Assembly (NCBI GenBank): GCA_947499565.1
Contig: CANMOV010000001.1
Coordinates: forward strand, 744,001 to 808,000
Direction: 5' to 3'
DNA: 64,000 nt
DNA from: an uncultured Croceitalea sp.
Lineage (GTDB): Bacteria > Bacteroidota > Bacteroidia > Flavobacteriales > Flavobacteriaceae
The notes under the pieces are model-generated. The model saw only the letters and a program-made list of their open reading frames with translations. It was not told where the DNA came from and did not search any database. A program made the position numbers and the translations under genes. This document shows positions 3,887 through 60,383 of the stretch, piece after piece (position 1 is the first letter of the stretch; the number at the start of each line of letters is the position of its first letter).

Positions 3887-4975
3887 ATGAAAAACTATTT
3901 CAATTACGTTATACTTGTTTTTGGATTACTTCTATTTATTTCTTGCGGAAATGCGGATGACGATGTTAATTTTGATTTAAACCAAGGAGAACTTGGTGAA
4001 GGCAAAGAACCAGATGATTGCTTGAATTTTGAGGACAATGAATTGTTGCTTTCTATACAAGATCAGTTCACAACACTACCTGGTAAGGTTTCTATCCTGT
4101 TTAAAGTAAGTGATAATTTAGGAAATCCTGTTTCTGGTCTCACTGCAAATCAATTTACCATTTACGAACAAGGCAGAAACGATGATTGTTTTAACACCAT
4201 ATCATCTTCCGAGTCTCTTGCTCGTATATCGCCTAATTCGCAAGTGTTTAATAATAATACCTTACTGGTGCTAGATTTAAGTAATTCCGTATTGCAAGGC
4301 AGTTTGGAAGAGCTTAAAACTGCATCCACGAGTTTTGTGAATAATGTAATGCCATCTCCCGAATCGGATTCCTTTAAAATGGCCATCTATTGGTTTGATG
4401 GGGAAGACGAATTACACTTGTTAAACGCCCTCACTTCTTCAACTACTGAATTAACTGCCGCTATTGCGGGTATTGATGAGAATATAAGTAATGACCCATC
4501 TACAGATTTATATGGAGCAGTAATAAAATCTACCAATATTGCGGAAGAATTGTTGCAGAACAGCACGCAAAATTCTGCCATTGGTGCAGCTTCGGTTGTG
4601 ATTTTTACGGATGGTACTGATCAAGCATCCCGATTTACAGAGCAGAGTGCACTAAATGCTGTTAATAATGCAAATAGAAATATCTCATTTTTTACTATTG
4701 GACTAGGTGCTGAGATTGATTCTGAGGTTCTTGGGACTATTGGAAAGACTGCAAGTGTGGTTGCCAGTAATGCCGCAGAGCTTGAAACTACGTTTAATCA
4801 AATATCTGCACGAGTTTCTGAGCAAGCAAATAGTTTTTACTTATTTGAGTATTGTACTCCAAAAAGGGACGGGAGTGGTGAGAACAACCTTGTAATTCAA
4901 CTTACAGATGGTGCACAACAAGGTGCCGTACAGACTAGATTTAGTGCAAATGGATTCACTGGAGGGTGTGAGTAA
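3887..4975 (+). CDS. Von Willebrand factor A domain lipoprotein
   Basis: Predicted lipoprotein of 362 residues. I chose the ATG at 3887 over an upstream TTG at 3881. The N terminus has a hydrophobic stretch ending in LLFISCGN, a lipobox-like site, followed by an acidic linker. A region resembling an Ig-like or invasin-type segment (SILFKVSDNLGNPVSGL) precedes a VWA domain with the metal-ion-dependent adhesion site LDLSNS (DxSxS pattern) and FTDGTDQA further on. VWA domains bind protein partners through a divalent cation. C-terminal cysteines (EYCTPKR and a final GGCE) could form a disulfide. The gene stands alone between divergent and unrelated neighbours. Ligand unknown. Confidence 0.82.
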   Translation: MKNYFNYVILVFGLLLFISCGNADDDVNFDLNQGELGEGKEPDDCLNFEDNELLLSIQDQFTTLPGKVSILFKVSDNLGNPVSGLTANQFTIYEQGRNDDCFNTISSSESLARISPNSQVFNNNTLLVLDLSNSVLQGSLEELKTASTSFVNNVMPSPESDSFKMAIYWFDGEDELHLLNALTSSTTELTAAIAGIDENISNDPSTDLYGAVIKSTNIAEELLQNSTQNSAIGAASVVIFTDGTDQASRFTEQSALNAVNNANRNISFFTIGLGAEIDSEVLGTIGKTASVVASNAAELETTFNQISARVSEQANSFYLFEYCTPKRDGSGENNLVIQLTDGAQQGAVQTRFSANGFTGGCE

Positions 4976-10876: not shown

Positions 10877-12211
10877 ATGAAAATCTTCAAACGAATTTTA
10901 GTGCTTTTAATTCTGTTAATCGGCATTATAGTTTACCTAAACTATCCTAAGCTGAATATGATTTCTGGATATGCTTCAAAGTACATGGCTTCAAGTGTTT
11001 TGGTTGGAGAACGTTCTGCGGCATCTGTTATTAGTAATGATTTAGATATGCCCCTTGTTAAGCTCGCAACTACAGAATTTAATACCCAAGAAGCTGAAGC
11101 TACTGCAAATGTTTATGGACTAATGAACAGGAAAGCAATAGATAGACAAGGTTTAGGAACTGTATTGGTTAATGACGATTACCAACAAGATGAAATTTAC
11201 CTACAACCAAATCGTAATAATACACCAATAGCACAACCTTATCCATTTGGCCATTTAGCACCAAAGGACACACTTTTTTCAGATGTAGATTATAATAAGT
11301 TACAAAAAGCTATAGCTGTAGCTTTTGGAAACAATGAGACTCAAAAAACCAGAACATTATTGGTCCTCTACAAAGGACATTTGCTTGTAGAGAAATATGC
11401 TGACGGATTTTCCAAAGACACTCCAATATTGGGTTGGTCTATGACCAAAAGCTTATTAGCAACCTGCTTTGGCATTCTAGAGTATAAAGGAAAATTAGAG
11501 ACTAAATGGTTGGCACCTGTAGCAGAATGGAAAAATGACGAACGGAAAGAAATTACGCTAAATCATTTACTACGAATGCAGAGCGGGTTGGAATGGAACG
11601 AAGATTATGCCACAATTTCCGATGCGACCAAAATGCTATTCTTAGATTCTGACATGACACTTGCCCAAAGAGATAAAAAAGCTGTTGCTAAGCCGACAAA
11701 GATTTGGAACTACTCTTCTGGCACTACTAACTTACTTTCTGGAATTTTAAGACAACAATTTCGAACGCAACAAGAATACTTAGATTTTCCTTATACTTCA
11801 TTTATTGATAAAATAGGAGCCCACTCCATGCTATTAGAAGCGGACTTAAAGGGAAACTATGTAGGCTCATCTTACGGTTGGGCAAGCACTAGGGATTGGG
11901 CTCGCATTGGGCAATTATATTTAAATAATGGCAGTTGGAATGGGGAACAACTTTTTAGCGCAGAATGGGTTAACTACATTACAACTCCAACCCAATTCTC
12001 CGATGGAAAATATGGTGCACACTTTTGGCTAAACTCTAATGGATTTTATCCGGATGTACCTAGAGACTTGTATTCAATGAATGGATTTCAAGGGCAATAT
12101 GTGTTTGTAATTCCTTCAAAAGACTTGGTGGTAGTGCGAACAGGATTGGCAGAAAATCCCGTTTTTGATGTAAATCGCTTTTTATCAAGCCTTATAGCAA
12201 CGATTCCATAG
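10877..12211 (+). CDS. Membrane-anchored serine hydrolase, class C beta-lactamase/DD-peptidase fold
   Basis: Protein of 444 residues with an uncleaved-looking N-terminal hydrophobic segment (ILVLLILLIGIIVYL). The penicillin-recognising catalytic motif is GWSMTKSLL (SxxK), and NYSSGTTNLLSG supplies the tyrosine of the YxN/YxS element. The C terminus contains the HFWLN...FQGQYVFVIP pattern common to the beta-lactamase superfamily (PF00144). Such proteins can be esterases, D-amino peptidases or transpeptidase relatives; a true beta-lactamase function is not indicated. The active site faces the periplasm. It is the last plus-strand gene before the duplicated non-coding element. Confidence 0.85.
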   Translation: MKIFKRILVLLILLIGIIVYLNYPKLNMISGYASKYMASSVLVGERSAASVISNDLDMPLVKLATTEFNTQEAEATANVYGLMNRKAIDRQGLGTVLVNDDYQQDEIYLQPNRNNTPIAQPYPFGHLAPKDTLFSDVDYNKLQKAIAVAFGNNETQKTRTLLVLYKGHLLVEKYADGFSKDTPILGWSMTKSLLATCFGILEYKGKLETKWLAPVAEWKNDERKEITLNHLLRMQSGLEWNEDYATISDATKMLFLDSDMTLAQRDKKAVAKPTKIWNYSSGTTNLLSGILRQQFRTQQEYLDFPYTSFIDKIGAHSMLLEADLKGNYVGSSYGWASTRDWARIGQLYLNNGSWNGEQLFSAEWVNYITTPTQFSDGKYGAHFWLNSNGFYPDVPRDLYSMNGFQGQYVFVIPSKDLVVVRTGLAENPVFDVNRFLSSLIATIP

Positions 12212-12240: not shown

Positions 12241-12404
12241 CTTAGCATACCACAAAAGCTAGTCACTTCACAACAATAATTTCATTGCCGAGCAGTCTAA
12301 ACCTACATTTACAGTGTAATAATTAAGTAAATAAATTTTTTCATTTTCATATAGTGTTCTCGTAAAAGGGCCTTTGTCGAATAGACAGGGCTCTTTTTAA
12401 TTTA
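12241..12404 (+). repeat. Tandem non-coding element, copy 1 (ends in terminator)
   Basis: First of two direct copies spaced about 228 bases apart. It matches copy 2 with roughly 14 differences over about 155 bases. Blocks TAGTCACTTCACAACAATAA and the stretch from 12304 to 12367 (with one mismatch) are nearly identical, while a 20-base segment at 12285-12304 is variable. It contains the palindrome TTACAGTGTAA. No open frame of useful length is present on either strand. It ends in a hairpin with a T-run, which suggests a short transcript or a tandem terminator module. Confidence 0.85.
12367..12398 (+). terminator. Rho-independent terminator in copy 1
   Basis: The stem starts AGGGCCTTTGTC, the loop is GAATA, and the return arm is GACAGGGCTCT, followed by TTTTT. 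One bulged T and a G-U pair are needed. It would stop transcription from the serine hydrolase gene or from a transcript starting inside the repeat. Confidence 0.8.
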
Positions 12405-12468
12405 CCCCTATCTCACTTTTTTAGATCAGTTATTATCTCAAATCTAACTCAAAAGACAAGAAATGGCA

Positions 12469-12629
12469 CTTAACCACAAAAGGTAGTCACTTCACAACAA
12501 TAATTTCATTTCTGAGCACTCTCCGTCTACATTTACAGTGTAATAATCAAGTAAATAAATTTTTTCATTTTCATATAGTGTTCTCGTAAAAGAGCCTTTG
12601 TCCAACAGACAGGGGCTCTTTTTAGTTTA
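12469..12629 (+). repeat. Tandem non-coding element, copy 2 (ends in terminator)
   Basis: Second direct copy of the 12241 element. Relative to copy 1 it lacks four bases near its start and has changes mostly in one 20-base variable segment and in the terminator loop. The change from G to A in the third position of the terminator stem keeps pairing with U, and an extra G in the return arm pairs with a U, so the hairpin is preserved. It ends 86 bases before the ATG of the secreted coiled-coil gene. Confidence 0.85.
12591..12623 (+). terminator. Rho-independent terminator in copy 2
   Basis: AGAGCCTTTGTC, loop CAACA, GACAGGGGCTCT, then TTTTT. All 12 positions of the stem can pair, two of them as G-U. 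It is a stronger hairpin than copy 1. Confidence 0.85.
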
Positions 12630-12715: not shown

Positions 12716-13102
12716 ATGAAGAAAATAGCATCACTTATACTTGCTTGTGCTCTGGGGCTATTTACCCTACAAGCTCAAGAAAATGAAAGCGCAGAGGCGG
12801 ATAAAGCGCAAATGGAAAAAATCGCTAAATCTATAAAAGAAGCAAAAAAAGAAGCAAAAGCAGCTAAAAAAGCCAATGCTTCTCTTAAAAAGCAAGATAA
12901 ATTAGCAAAGGACATTAGTAAAACAGAAAACAAGCATAAATCCGAAAAACAAAGGCTAAAGAAATTAAAAGCTAGGCTTACACAAAAAGAAAGTAAACTA
13001 AGTAAAGTAGAAAAAGAAAAAGCTGAGCTTAAAATTGCTAAGTCAGAAGCTCAAATTGAAAAACTAGAGAATAAGTTAACCAAATTGCGTAAGAAAATCT
13101 AA
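12716..13102 (+). CDS. Secreted Lys/Glu/Ala-rich coiled-coil protein
   Basis: Protein of 128 residues. A signal peptide (LILACALGLFTLQAQ) leads into about 105 residues that are almost all Lys, Glu, Ala, Ser and Leu with heptad-like spacing, predicting one long helix or coiled coil (for example SKLSKVEKEKAELKIAKSEA). No cysteine or enzyme motif occurs after the signal. It would be a periplasmic helical protein; a chaperone-like or envelope-spacer role is possible but not shown. It follows the duplicated terminator element. I do not recognise a named family. Confidence 0.7.
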   Translation: MKKIASLILACALGLFTLQAQENESAEADKAQMEKIAKSIKEAKKEAKAAKKANASLKKQDKLAKDISKTENKHKSEKQRLKKLKARLTQKESKLSKVEKEKAELKIAKSEAQIEKLENKLTKLRKKI

Positions 13103-13160: not shown

Positions 13161-14003
13161 TTAAGGAAGCCATTTATCTTTGCCAAAGTCTGGTTTACGT
13201 TTTTCCAAAAAGGCATTTCGCCCCTCCTTAGCTTCATCGGTCATATATGCTAATCTTGTAGCCTCTCCTGCAAATACTTGTTGACCAACCATACCATCAT
13301 CGGTAAGATTCATAGCAAACTTGAGCATTTTAATAGAAGTCGGTGATTTTTCCAAAACCTCCTGTGCCCATTGGTAAGCTGTTGCTTCTAATTCTTCATG
13401 TGGGATTACTGCATTTACCATTCCCATTTCAAAAGCCTCTTGGGCAGAATAATTTCGACCTAAAAAGAAAATCTCACGGGCTTTCTTTTGTCCAACCATC
13501 TTTGCCAAGTACGCAGAACCATATCCCCCATCAAAACTAGTTACATCCGCATCGGTCTGTTTAAAAATAGCATGTTCCTTGCTGGCCAAGGTCATATCAC
13601 AAACAACATGTAGACTATGTCCTCCTCCTACAGCCCAACCGGGTACAACAGCAATAACAACTTTTGGCATAAAGCGAATCATACGTTGTACCTCTAAAAT
13701 ATTTAAGCGATGTTGCCCATCTTGCCCAACATACCCTTGATGTCCCCTAGCCTTCTGGTCTCCGCCACTACAAAAAGACCAAATGCCATCTTTTGATGAT
13801 GGGCCTTCTGCAGAAAGCAGGACAACTCCAATAGCAGTATCTTCCTGCGCATCATAGAAGGCTTTAATTAACTCACTTGTTGTATTAGGCCTAAAGGCGT
13901 TACGAACATTAGGGCGATTAAAAGCGATACGTGCTACGCCATTCGCTTTTTTATAAGTGATATCTTCAAATTCGATAGCAGTCTCCCAGTTTAATGCTTT
14001 CAT
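13161..14003 (-). CDS. menB: MenB, 1,4-dihydroxy-2-naphthoyl-CoA synthase
   Basis: Crotonase-family enzyme of 280 residues that closes the naphthoquinone ring from o-succinylbenzoyl-CoA in menaquinone synthesis. MenB-specific segments are visible: IAFNRPNVRNAFRP, IWSFCSGGDQKARG, PGWAVGGGHSLHVVCD and QTDADVTSFDGGYGSAYLA, with an oxyanion-hole GG pair in GGGHSLH and the catalytic Asp/Tyr region in DGGYGS. Length is normal for the family. No other men gene is adjacent, so the pathway is dispersed in this genome. Confidence 0.95.
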   Translation of the reverse strand: MKALNWETAIEFEDITYKKANGVARIAFNRPNVRNAFRPNTTSELIKAFYDAQEDTAIGVVLLSAEGPSSKDGIWSFCSGGDQKARGHQGYVGQDGQHRLNILEVQRMIRFMPKVVIAVVPGWAVGGGHSLHVVCDMTLASKEHAIFKQTDADVTSFDGGYGSAYLAKMVGQKKAREIFFLGRNYSAQEAFEMGMVNAVIPHEELEATAYQWAQEVLEKSPTSIKMLKFAMNLTDDGMVGQQVFAGEATRLAYMTDEAKEGRNAFLEKRKPDFGKDKWLP

Positions 14004-51486: not shown

Positions 51487-52764
51487 TCATCTTTTCACTA
51501 TAATTTGCTCAATCCATTGTCTTTCGTCAAACTTATATTCATGAAGAATTTCCCCTTCAAAATTCATAAAAACTAAACCAATAAAATCAGGATTATCATT
51601 TTCGATAAAACCTTGGGTGAATCCATGATACAATACCGCAAAAGTTTCAGATTCTAAGTCAAATTTATATTCCTTAGGTTGTCGTATAGGGTTGGGAACT
51701 GGAATTCCACTATTGCGGAAATACTCACGGTATACTTCAGAATCAAAAGTTATGGAACTATTCGATTGGAAATCATATACTCCAGGGAAAAGCTTTTGTT
51801 CTTCAAAATTATAAATCATTAAACCAACCTTGTTCTGGTATATCTCAGCTTGGCCAAGTCTATCTCCAATAATCAAACCATCTGAATTAGAAACTTCATT
51901 AGAAAAAAGAGTTTGTCCACTCTCAAGGTCAATTAAATCCAAAAGAGTGTTATTCCTTTTCAAGACCATCTTTTGCTTGCATACAAGAGGTATTTTGCGC
52001 TCAGACGTTCTATTTTCATAAATAATTTCATTAGAAGTAGCATTGTAAACTATTAATCCATCTTGGTCAATGGATTGGCCTTGAGCGTCTTCATTTAAAT
52101 TGTTAAAATGATAATAATAATAATAATCCGAACCCCATAACAAATTGAAGGAGTCCCCCATATGAGCTGCTTCTATTTTAGGAAATATTATATTTTCATC
52201 AGTGGATTGATTCCTAAATACAGGGATAATATCATCAGGAGCTTGACATAAATCATAATTAAAAAACAACAAGCCATTAGAATTTGCAGCTAATTGTGTT
52301 CCATCAAAGAAACAATTTTCGCTGGTCAACAATAATTCAGTCCGGTTTGCAGAATAAATCTGTTGCGTATCTAAATTATAGGTTAAATATTCTTTCTCTA
52401 TTGTTCCTGTCTTTTGTAAAAAAACTAAAACATTCTCTTGTCCATTAGTAACAATACCAGCGTCAAGATCAAGATTTATCGTTTGAGTAAGGTTAAGAGA
52501 TTCAGAAGGATTAGATAAACCTTTTAAAAAATCAATGCTCTCAAATTGGCCTTCACGTTGAGCAGGGTTAGAAAAATCTTTTAAAACAATGGAAAGAGAG
52601 AATGGAAACGTGAAAGGCTCTTCTTCTGACATCTCGTCATCATTATTACCTTCTTCACTTGTTGTTTCATCATCAGCTTGTTGATTAGCCTCAGGCTCAA
52701 TTGGCGAGTTTGAACTACAAGCAATAAGACATAAGAATACAAAAAGAAGTATTAGCTTTTTCAT
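51487..52764 (-). CDS. Lipoprotein with repeated beta structure, function unknown
   Basis: Predicted lipoprotein of 425 residues with lipobox FLCLIAC (Cys16), followed by an acidic low-complexity linker (EANQQADDETTSEEGNNDDE). The rest has repeated short motifs of the type YNFEEQKLFPGVYDF and YNATSNEIIYENR, suggestive of a beta-propeller or a similar repeat fold. No catalytic motif recognised. The gene stop abuts the recG stop directly on the opposite strand. Confidence 0.72.
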   Translation of the reverse strand: MKKLILLFVFLCLIACSSNSPIEPEANQQADDETTSEEGNNDDEMSEEEPFTFPFSLSIVLKDFSNPAQREGQFESIDFLKGLSNPSESLNLTQTINLDLDAGIVTNGQENVLVFLQKTGTIEKEYLTYNLDTQQIYSANRTELLLTSENCFFDGTQLAANSNGLLFFNYDLCQAPDDIIPVFRNQSTDENIIFPKIEAAHMGDSFNLLWGSDYYYYYHFNNLNEDAQGQSIDQDGLIVYNATSNEIIYENRTSERKIPLVCKQKMVLKRNNTLLDLIDLESGQTLFSNEVSNSDGLIIGDRLGQAEIYQNKVGLMIYNFEEQKLFPGVYDFQSNSSITFDSEVYREYFRNSGIPVPNPIRQPKEYKFDLESETFAVLYHGFTQGFIENDNPDFIGLVFMNFEGEILHEYKFDERQWIEQIIVKR

Positions 52765-52836
52765 TCAATTCTTTTTTACAAATAACGCATGAATATGATT
52801 AATCTCAAAATTGTTCCGCCAGGAGGTTTTTGCACT

Positions 52837-52866
52837 AAAAAAGCCCTAATAATTATTAGGGCTTTT
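52837..52866 (-). terminator. Terminator after the DUF2911 gene
   Basis: AAAAGCCCTAATAATTATTAGGGCTTTT is a long palindrome with T-runs on both strands. On the minus strand it follows the DUF2911 gene stop by about 21 bases. It shares AGCCCTAAT wording with the terminator at 54118. Confidence 0.88.
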
Positions 52867-52887
52867 ATCTCAATTAAGAAGATGCAA

Positions 52888-53994
52888 TTATTTATTAATA
52901 TCCTCTCCCTTTTTAAGGCGTTCTATACTCTGTTCTAATCTGGGTTTAAAATTAGCAGGAGCCACTGTTAAAGATTTATTTATAGATTTTATGGCATTTT
53001 TATAATCTCCTTTGGCAGAATATGCTCTTGCAAGTCCATAATTACTAGGCCAAGCGCCTTTACTATTCTTTACATTAGCCTTAAGAATACCAAATGCCTT
53101 ATCAACATCTGTCCCTAAAAGTTGCGTTCCTAAACCATACACCTCACGTGATGTTCCCATTTCAGCTGCTTTATCTACATAGCTAGATGCTTCTGCACTT
53201 TTACCTTGCTTAGCTAAAATCTTAGATTTTAAAGACAGGTTTGAAAAAGTTTCTTTGCTAAAGAAGTTACCACTTATAGAAGCATTAACCCATTCCAATG
53301 CTTTGTCAATATTTCCAGCATTAAAAGCATAATTCGCGGCCTGGTCCCAAGTAGCTTGTCTAAAGCCATTTGGATTACGTAAATCATTCGCTATACCTTC
53401 CATAACAATATCGGTAACGGCAACTTCAATTTTTACAGGTATTTCCTTTTTAGCCCATTTAAGGCTAGCCACAGTACTTGTAGCATCTGCAGTATCAAAA
53501 CTAAAAGTCAACATTTCCACAGAATCTTCAATATCATTTGACTTTACATTAAAGCGGAGTGCATCTTCAGCTTCATCATAAAAGTAACTTCCCCAAGAAG
53601 TAGTATTATTAGATAAGATTCCAGTAACATCGCCATTTTCCTCAATTGCAAAAAAGAGCGCATATTTTCCGGCTTTAACGTCCTTACCTTCTACCTTAAC
53701 ATCATGCGTAAACTCAATGGTAGTATTGTAGTCCGCACCAGCACGCCATGGTGCAGATTTAGAAGTTCCAAAACCAAGGTCGTTAAATCCATATGGCACT
53801 AATTTGCCCCATATTTCTCTTCCTTTCACATAAGGTCGATTGTAGTGAATGGTGATGTCTGTAATCCCAACTCGTTGACTTACTTCCGCTTCTGGACTAC
53901 CAGCTGGTAAGGTGAGTTGTGCATTTAAATTTGTAGTAAAACTCAAAAGTGCTAAAACTAGTACTAAGGAGAATTTTGAGTACATTTTTTTCAT
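52888..53994 (-). CDS. DUF2911 domain protein with TPR-like tail
   Basis: Protein of 368 residues with a signal peptide (SLVLVLALLSFTTNLNAQ). The DUF2911 domain is clear in SPEAEVSQRVGITDITIHYNRP, GREIWGKLVPYG, WRAGADYNTTIEF and YALFFAIEENGD. About 130 residues at the C terminus look like tetratricopeptide repeats (KALEWVNASI, ALSYVDKAAEMG-type, YGLARAYSAKGDYKNAIKSINKSL). The family is common in Bacteroidota and its function is unknown. Flanked by similar terminators on both sides. Confidence 0.87.
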   Translation of the reverse strand: MKKMYSKFSLVLVLALLSFTTNLNAQLTLPAGSPEAEVSQRVGITDITIHYNRPYVKGREIWGKLVPYGFNDLGFGTSKSAPWRAGADYNTTIEFTHDVKVEGKDVKAGKYALFFAIEENGDVTGILSNNTTSWGSYFYDEAEDALRFNVKSNDIEDSVEMLTFSFDTADATSTVASLKWAKKEIPVKIEVAVTDIVMEGIANDLRNPNGFRQATWDQAANYAFNAGNIDKALEWVNASISGNFFSKETFSNLSLKSKILAKQGKSAEASSYVDKAAEMGTSREVYGLGTQLLGTDVDKAFGILKANVKNSKGAWPSNYGLARAYSAKGDYKNAIKSINKSLTVAPANFKPRLEQSIERLKKGEDINK

Positions 53995-59801: not shown

Positions 59802-60383
59802 CTATTTTATTTTTACCGCCAATATTACTCCTGTTGACCAATCCATTTCTGTCAAATTAAAATCATCTCTTTTTTTTAAATAACTTACTAAAGTATTTAC
59901 ATGAAATTGATGTCCTTTCGGCCAATTTGGCTGTGTCTTCATATCATCAATTACATAGAACCCACCTATTTTAATTAAATCTAAAATTTCATCTATTTCA
60001 CTGTACTTTCCTGGCCAAGCATCCGCAAAAACTAAGTCAAACTTTTCTCCTTTGTATTCTCTAATCCAATCTGATGCGTCACGACAAATAATTTCTACTT
60101 GACTATTAGTTCCAAAGTACTGTTTAACAATCGTAATCAATTTTGGGTCGTTGTCTACCGTTATTAGTTTTGAAAAATCATCCATACCATCAATCATCCA
60201 TGATAAAGACAGACCTATTCCTGTGCCAAGTTCAAGAAGATGAGCATTGGGCTTAGAGCTTATTAAAACCTTAAGCAATGTTCCTATATATACATCTGAA
60301 GGCATTGTAAAACCTACCTCATTAGATTTACTCTTAATTTCAGAATATATTTCAGGAATATCAATTATGCTTTCATCTTCCAT
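59802..60383 (-). CDS. SAM-dependent O-methyltransferase-like protein inserted between ilvB and ilvN
   Basis: Protein of 193 residues with a class I methyltransferase core: SAM motif LLELGTGIGLSLSWMI (near 48), acidic loop ITVDNDPKLI, CRDASDWI and DLVFADAWPGKYSEIDEI, then GGFYVIDDM. It resembles the O-methyltransferase type 3 / CmoA-like group but lacks features that would name a substrate. It is 16 bases after the ilvB stop and 12 bases before ilvN, so it is fully inside the operon. No role in branched-chain synthesis is known for such a protein. Confidence 0.85.
   Translation of the reverse strand: MEDESIIDIPEIYSEIKSKSNEVGFTMPSDVYIGTLLKVLISSKPNAHLLELGTGIGLSLSWMIDGMDDFSKLITVDNDPKLITIVKQYFGTNSQVEIICRDASDWIREYKGEKFDLVFADAWPGKYSEIDEILDLIKIGGFYVIDDMKTQPNWPKGHQFHVNTLVSYLKKRDDFNLTEMDWSTGVILAVKIK

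Follow-up and report, generated by a model that had tools for sequence, protein, structure and literature searches.

A predicted multicopy small RNA family of marine flavobacteria with a candidate LytTR regulator and complementarity to the start codons of some CAP-domain lipoprotein genes

Two adjacent predicted small RNA (sRNA) genes lie on the forward strand of the window, the 64,000-nucleotide stretch of DNA from an uncultured Croceitalea sp. that is analysed here. They are members of an sRNA family that is found in many marine flavobacteria; the family is real, is of a known general kind, and is apparently undescribed, and the circumstantial case for its regulator and target is unusually complete. 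The best reading of the sequences is a multicopy sRNA family that is driven by a two-component system and pairs with start codons, and we assign this reading a probability of about 0.8. Each copy would be an independent sRNA gene. A signal would pass through a TPR histidine kinase to a LytTR response regulator, whose gene lies at another locus of the genome, next to the kinase gene and a third sRNA copy. The regulator would bind two 9-bp repeats upstream of the -33 region and, once bound, would activate a promoter of the TAnnTTTG type. The product would be an RNA of about 86 nt with a mostly unstructured 5' half, which includes a 21-nt core, and an intrinsic terminator at its end. The core would pair across the start codon of an mRNA (GAGAACACUAU-AUG-AAAAUGA) and block translation initiation; the outcome would be less translation of selected surface proteins, such as CAP-domain lipoproteins. 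Several sRNA copies would provide the dose of one seed. Within this scheme, the anatomy of the genes, the family, the spacing of the repeats, the phyletic link with the regulator and the complementarity to CAP starts are visible in the sequences; we infer transcription, binding and activation by the regulator, and the repressive outcome.

The first-pass annotation of this DNA reported two direct copies of about 155 bases. A repeat search of the window bears this out: a direct-repeat family of 155 nt is present at 12249-12403 and 12473-12627, with a start-to-start spacing of 224 bp and 88% ungapped identity. By BLAST against the whole genome, the two copies (about 157 bp each) are 91% identical with gaps (E = 3.2e-57). 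With the 172-base element as query, a third copy is found in the same genome at G000:C1:444984 (78%, E 5e-22). Each gene is made up of an operator, a promoter, the sRNA and a terminator. Copy 1 spans 12249-12404 (+) and copy 2 spans 12473-12629 (+); the covariance model (CM) of the family scores 91.2 bits at 12315-12401 and 91.1 bits at 12539-12626. As had been claimed, there is no ORF of 50 aa or more inside either copy, and the palindrome TTACAGTGTAA is present in both.

The gene anatomy can be read directly from the sequences. An anchored logo was made from 112 of 156 copies, namely those with a TAnnTTT box and sufficient upstream sequence; because the copies were picked by this box, its presence in the logo is by construction. 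From 5' to 3', the order is ACCACA; 15 nt; ACAACA and then ATAATTT; about 20 nt which are not conserved; TACATTTAC; and TGTAATA. The unconserved stretch is the variable 20-base segment that was pointed out at first pass. The segment is real; in copy 1 it lies at 12284-12303 (+) and forms the spacer from the -33 region (TTTC) to the -7 box. The -7 box, TACATTTAC (TAnnTTTG type), is found at 12304-12312 (+) in copy 1 and at 12528-12536 (+) in copy 2. Sigma-A promoters of F. psychrophilum have TAnnTTTG at -12 to -5, according to the sections of PMC9723704 drawn on here; starts are therefore predicted near 12316 and 12540. The -33 element in the sRNA promoters is TTTC, not TTTG. The palindrome TTACAGTGTAA lies over the -7 box and the predicted start, at 12309-12319 and 12533-12543, and its form TTAC-N3-GTAA is mostly conserved in the family (112 anchored copies). 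The copy in genome G007 (L047 1482-1732) has about 90 additional bases separating the -7 box from the core.

Just upstream of the -33 region is a direct repeat of the LytTR type, ACCACAAAA-12 bp-ACAACAATA, which has a 21-bp period. It is located at 12249-12278 (+) in copy 1 and, with the same spacing, at 12473-12502 (+) in copy 2; these two, one per copy, are the only strict matches in the 64-kb window. The operator pattern is ACnACA-N15-ACA(A/T)CA. LytTR operators are 9-bp direct repeats, mostly 12 bp apart (11-13), beside the -35 element, and many examples begin with ACCAC (PMC6193735, in the parts cited here). The repeats here also begin with ACCAC, and the logo and spacing scan give the same geometry, with 9-bp repeats and a 12-bp spacer. 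One published example, ACCACTTAC-12 bp-ACCACTTGC, resembles the repeat pair of copy 1 (PMC6193735, same parts). The examples in those parts drive operons and none is flavobacterial, whereas the operator here precedes a battery of sRNAs (PMC6193735). The spacing scan covered 1.196 Mb of loci, selected for their sRNA copies or for the gene of the regulator, and its counts are not deduplicated. A repeat pair followed after 27/29 nt by TAnnTT occurs 167 times at a gap of 15, nine times at 12 and three times at 20; at every other gap from 8 to 23 there are none. An operator-like element is common to the promoters of the family: of 153 distinct copies, 129 have a strict repeat pair, 11 have a loose one and 13 have none that is recognisable. 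In 400 kb sampled elsewhere in the genome there are two strict pairs, and neither is followed at the expected distance by a -7 box.

The predicted RNA is 86 nt long. Folding leaves the first 46-49 nt unpaired in both window copies, with the core inside this region and the hairpin after it. The core, TCATTTTCATATAGTGTTCTC, lies at 12341-12361 (+) in copy 1 and at 12565-12585 (+) in copy 2; it is predicted to be unpaired in both and is the proposed seed. It is the informative part of the element, upstream of the terminator, and was not singled out at first pass. In the third own-genome copy, a weak stem is predicted over part of the leader and the first letters of the core. The terminator hairpins and T-runs are at 12364-12401 (+) and 12588-12626 (+). 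Such a T-tailed hairpin had been claimed for each copy, and folding agrees: the minimum free energies are -17.3 and -21.7 kcal/mol (z -2.54 and -3.98, dinucleotide shuffles as reference). Differences inside the stem had been said to keep pairing, and a structural alignment for compensatory changes had been proposed as a check; in 63 chosen copies (alignment A2), both partners show changes in 11 of 14 stem pairs. This covariation says only that the terminator is kept. The core carries no covariation evidence because it does not vary. Alignment A1 (72 rows) included target loci and atypical copies; A2 (63 rows), on which both the covariation and the CM are based, left out L110, L128, L135, L087, L121, both L129 rows, L144 and L178.

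The family extends well beyond the window. Among 59 genomes (own included), 19 have BLAST matches at E<=1e-3. Clear copies are found in 11 of these (own included), and the other eight have short AT-rich matches. The identical core block is present in 35 of 37 aligned BLAST rows; one of the two exceptions is a spurious hit and the other a fragment of an interrupted copy. When GTDB contigs were scanned with the core block, at least 119 stretches matched. The matches listed include Maribacter, Allomuricauda/Flagellimonas, Arenibacter, Zobellia, Cellulophaga, Robiginitalea, Eudoraea and similar genera, which we take to be members of the family Flavobacteriaceae; Flavobacteriaceae, Bacteroidia and Bacteroidetes MAGs are also listed. 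With at most one mismatch, the core is found in 71 of 397 family genomes and 42 of 237 genera, with 1-7 sites in each genome, usually 2-5. There are 214 sites in total, some of which are target sites rather than sRNA genes. The reversed core, used as a control over the same 397 genomes, has no match. Not every unit keeps the core: one that adjoins the regulator in G110 (L354 517-603) has the operator and terminator with a decayed core (51.8 bits), and copies of this sort escape counts made by core search. Several paralogous non-coding genes per genome, with promoter and terminator, make this a multicopy sRNA family.

A CM search of related genomes had also been proposed. Among 395 genomes of the order, 56 pass E<=0.01. 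Matches of 52-98 bits are confined to 13 genomes, all of them core-positive by the core scan. The remaining passes, at 28-43 bits, look like a chance tail made up of an AT-rich leader plus a terminator; they include one additional match in the own genome and further ones in core-positive genomes. Also rejected were CM matches at window 52739-52911, which overlap an ordinary terminator that follows a gene. Rfam 15 has no match to the window at gathering score. A search at E<=10 gave no credible match; the best one below threshold, Thr_leader, has E 0.011 and 25.8 bits against a gathering score of 55 and is a terminator-like fit. We found no publication on such an sRNA family in Flavobacteriaceae in the open-licence literature.

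The neighbours of the copies were tabulated for 167 copy contexts, a count that retains duplicates and takes in four target loci. Upstream, 54 contexts have a serine hydrolase gene, 37 have the gene of the LytTR regulator (directly upstream), and 19 have a PEP carboxylase gene. The downstream neighbour is menB on the opposite strand in 42 and a gene of the type found at 12716 in 12. In the window, the commonest upstream neighbour is represented by the serine-hydrolase gene at 10877-12211 (+; beta-lactamase family PF00144), and the commonest downstream neighbour by menB (1,4-dihydroxy-2-naphthoyl-CoA synthase) at 13161-14003 (-). Copies lie in menaquinone gene neighbourhoods, with menA and a menC-like gene at L037 2185-8395 and menB at window 13161-14003. 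The gene at 12716-13102, which adjoins the sRNAs, encodes a small secreted coiled-coil-like protein with no family above cut-off.

Two interpretations were offered at first pass: tandem small RNA genes, or a paired attenuator before the coiled-coil gene. The first is well supported by the sequences; the same unit of promoter, open seed and terminator is seen in 153 distinct copies, at several types of locus. The second, in which the pair is an attenuator or leader that governs read-through into the gene at 12716, has in its favour that this gene is just downstream on the same strand. It is nevertheless very improbable. A gene of this type follows only 12 of the 167 copy contexts, and the tandem pair of G002 is directly followed by menB on the other strand; neither survey reveals a conserved same-strand downstream gene. 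The minimum-energy fold of both window copies is, moreover, the terminator alone. We give as little credence to a mobile or selfish repeat which has a promoter and terminator by happenstance. The element is multicopy, is found in tandem and has several genomic contexts, as such a repeat might, but its copy number per genome is low, its loci recur across genera (serine hydrolase/menB, regulator/kinase, ppc), and its promoter and terminator are kept where the flanks differ. Phage and plasmid collections have no match to the element; a single match to a viral contig is without the sRNA anatomy and, by eye, lies in a coding region.

The third own-genome copy is flanked by two genes, one of which encodes a LytTR response regulator and the other a TPR histidine kinase (PF07568), and an sRNA copy is found in this position in many genomes. 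The regulator has REC (PF00072) and LytTR (PF04397) domains, both above cut-off. In the own genome, menA is upstream of this locus and a menC-like gene is further downstream. A regulator match at E<=1e-60 is present in 82 of the 397 family genomes; these comprise all 71 core-positive genomes and 11 core-negative ones, and the other 315 have neither regulator nor core. Regulator identity is 82-100% in the core-positive genomes (77% in one) and 58-76% in the 11 core-negative genomes. Of the 59 genomes searched by BLAST (own included), 11 have both regulator and sRNA and 48 have neither. The regulator is also better conserved than its neighbours; in G004 its identity is 94%, and those of the kinase and MenA are 71% and 62%. 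Since regulator and sRNA are both limited to a single clade, the 71 genomes are not 71 independent events; judging by this distribution, there may be few independent events behind the co-occurrence.

Position and co-occurrence point to the LytTR regulator as the candidate binder of the operator. In L037, the operator precedes both the kinase gene and a second predicted sRNA, and the repeat before the kinase gene (ACCACTTAA-12 bp-ACAACAAAA) likewise resembles published LytTR repeats. Among the 11 core-negative genomes, six have the operator beside their diverged regulator, where it mostly precedes other predicted sRNAs; at the other five regulator loci, the operator-plus-box pattern was not found. 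It is possible that the sRNA family is as described and that some other factor controls it, with the LytTR regulator merely co-inherited. Regulator and sRNA do share a single-clade distribution, and a first look at these genomes shows many response-regulator relatives, another of which could bind. We consider this unlikely, since the motif has LytTR geometry (9-12-9 bp), is placed both between the genes of the regulator and the kinase and ahead of the kinase gene, and is present beside the diverged regulator in those six genomes.

Some exact matches to the core turn out to be translation starts read from the opposite strand, GAGAACACTAT-ATG-AAAATGA. This sequence is found at the starts of CAP-domain lipoprotein genes of Lentiprolixibacter and two Maribacter, and at that of the gene for a 128-aa secreted protein, with no Pfam family, in Flavobacterium sp. 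ASW18X. A 17-letter start-site pattern, built to leave out typical sRNA genes, has 25 matches in 22 of 75 sRNA-positive genomes; its reversed control has none. The matches are 15 CAP-gene starts, three other long-ORF starts, five sRNA genes (identified by CM) and two that are neither and have no ORF. All 15 CAP genes have PF00188 above cut-off. In the 397-genome set, the pattern has 24 matches in 21 of the 71 core-positive genomes and four in the 326 core-negative genomes, none of which starts an ORF of more than 17 codons; the reversed pattern has four matches over all 397. Two more CAP starts (L356 and L357, in genomes G133 and G332) were found as one-mismatch core hits in which the change keeps a G-U pair. 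CAP starts complementary to the core are found in 17 of the 71 sRNA-bearing genomes versus none of the 326 others. When CAP homologues were collected by protein search, unselected for the site, a site with at most four mismatches in 21 was present in 3 of 9 sRNA-positive genomes and in none of 10 genomes without the sRNA.

Duplexes were predicted for 17 CAP sites, 15 taken from the pattern and two from exact-core matches. Their energies range from -22.6 to -33.5 kcal/mol, and 16 of the 17 beat all of 370 sampled own-genome starts (mean -8.2, sd 3.1 kcal/mol). It should be noted that site conservation among these rows is circular because they were chosen by their site. The complementarity of the core to CAP starts is itself plain from the sequences, and it makes mRNAs of CAP-domain lipoproteins the best-supported candidate targets in the family. 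Repression is favoured over activation because of the position of the duplex and the precedent of FopS (PMC11697453, in the parts used here); the sequence fits either sign of control, and repression as the outcome of pairing is suggested by analogy.

The near-invariance of the core could have a different cause. It might chiefly be a protein-binding site, with the multicopy RNAs titrating an RNA-binding protein and the complementarity to CAP starts secondary. The 21 nt are indeed near-invariant in many copies, even in genomes such as the own genome which have no known site-bearing target, and the Bacteroides RRM protein RbpB binds a multicopy sRNA family, as described in the sections of PMC11697453 cited here. 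Titration alone, however, does not predict 14-21 nt of antisense exactly across start codons, in one gene family and in sRNA-bearing genomes only. We thus consider it quite unlikely as the main function; titration and start-codon pairing are compatible, and both can hold.

In the own genome, the two CAP genes are without a complementary site (8 and 10 mismatches). A scan of this genome with two mismatches gives seven near-matches, three of which are the sRNAs, versus nine in the reversed control; this is chance level, and so is the result with three mismatches. At the start of porX (T9SS regulator, NF052313; L187, G000:C1:548097), 18 of 21 letters across the start codon are complementary to the core. 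The predicted duplex has an energy of -16.5 kcal/mol, which is reached by 7 of the 370 sampled starts, porX included. PorX is a lead only, and may be a chance match. A methyltransferase-like gene (PF01596) is found at window 59802-60383 (-). Its start at 60383 has a predicted energy of -23.5 kcal/mol, the best of the 370 sampled starts and the only one to reach the weakest CAP site. This gene, a DUF3276 gene (L372) and the gene of a 147-aa secreted protein without a Pfam family (L360) are likewise leads only.

The operator also has other predicted outputs. In L037, the second predicted sRNA (4210-4350) is flanked by the class 1 sRNA and the kinase gene; it is of a second class, with its own terminator and the core CCAAATCTTA. 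Class 2 units, with a core that is mostly CCCCAAATCTTA, are seen in the regulator loci L066, L086, L092, L093, L121, L138, L141, L145, L172, L299 and L300. Beside the diverged regulator there are four units in L289, three in L290, two in L295, and one each in L287, L291 and L293. In L289, L290 and L295, these 2-4 operator-promoter-terminator units stand in a row downstream of the regulator gene and have other cores. A CTCAAAT-type stretch directly abuts the class 1 core in G087 (L298 3133-3213); in G033 (L059 ~3812) and G287 (L358 197-282) such a stretch runs into a class 1 core with changed letters.

Protein-coding genes may be among the outputs as well. In the own genome, exact or one-mismatch operators are also found before genes for a dTDP-glucose 4,6-dehydratase (TIGR01181), a nucleotide-sugar dehydrogenase (TIGR03026), and secreted PKD, IgGFc-binding and LRR proteins. 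The own-genome operator scan has 18 matches versus 10 in the reversed control, and single sites before protein genes are therefore leads. Six matches are exact, and one of these (L306, LRR) is without a -7 box. In L302 and L308, sugar-nucleotide genes are preceded by a LytTR-type operator that has its -7 box at the usual distance, a possible link to surface polysaccharide.

The odds are about even on a broader reading, taken as a whole, in which the sRNAs are the main output of a dedicated LytTR system and have interchangeable seed cassettes. Class 1 (TCATTTTCATATAGTGTTCTC) and class 2 (core near CCCCAAATCTTA) would share one operator, which in a few genomes would also drive a unit whose class 2-like stretch continues straight into the seed of class 1. 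Genomes with a diverged regulator would have other sRNA units in their place, sometimes in tandem. Across about 40 genera the seed of class 1 would be near-fixed while targets turn over, which would make the seed the conserved unit.

By analogy, the family appears to work like the csRNAs of streptococci and FopS of Bacteroides. CiaR, on which the csRNAs depend, is an OmpR-type regulator. The csRNAs are described as CiaR-dependent in the cited parts of PMC8186281 and PMC3091779; the former gives the CiaR repeat as TTTAAG-N5-TTTAAG and reports regions complementary to the RBS and AUG. The likeness lies in several similar sRNAs under one response regulator (a candidate here), direct repeats, and RBS/AUG complementarity. 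Unlike the csRNAs, which belong to another phylum, the family here has a LytTR regulator as its candidate, a 21-bp period, and a complementarity across start codons that runs unbroken for up to 21-24 nt. Its operator, ACnACA-N15-ACA(A/T)CA, is not the CiaR operator TTTAAG-N5-TTTAAG; because the operator differs, the family is not a csRNA. FopS has 14 copies of about 65-70 nt with a 5' seed, and its pairing near start codons blocks translation. Its targets are SusC-like transporters and its transcriptional regulator is given as unknown (both statements from the cited sections of PMC11697453). Both families are from Bacteroidota, multicopy and short, with the seed in the 5' part and start-codon pairing (predicted here). 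They differ in the candidate LytTR regulator and CAP lipoproteins of the family here; the likeness is one of description.

Rfp18 is an sRNA of Flavobacterium psychrophilum that affects secreted proteases; it is strongly structured and pairs via its third stem-loop (PMC9723704, in the sections drawn on). By this description it is set apart from the RNA here, which is predicted to be mostly open apart from the terminator. LhrC and Qrr are multicopy like the family here, but have other regulators and targets and belong to other phyla. Qrr is controlled by LuxO. The cited parts of PMC4132741 tie the multicopy LhrC sRNAs of Listeria to the LisRK two-component system, and those of PMC11697453 name the Qrr sRNAs of Vibrio.

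To our knowledge, post-transcriptional control in Bacteroidota is known mainly from Bacteroides. Here, sequence alone yields a candidate regulator, an operator, sRNAs and a concrete predicted base-pairing target in a major marine lineage. There is a candidate for each link, and each link can therefore be tested with one mutant. A trans-acting seed that is conserved nearly base for base over about 40 genera is unusual, and raises the question of what fixes the seed.
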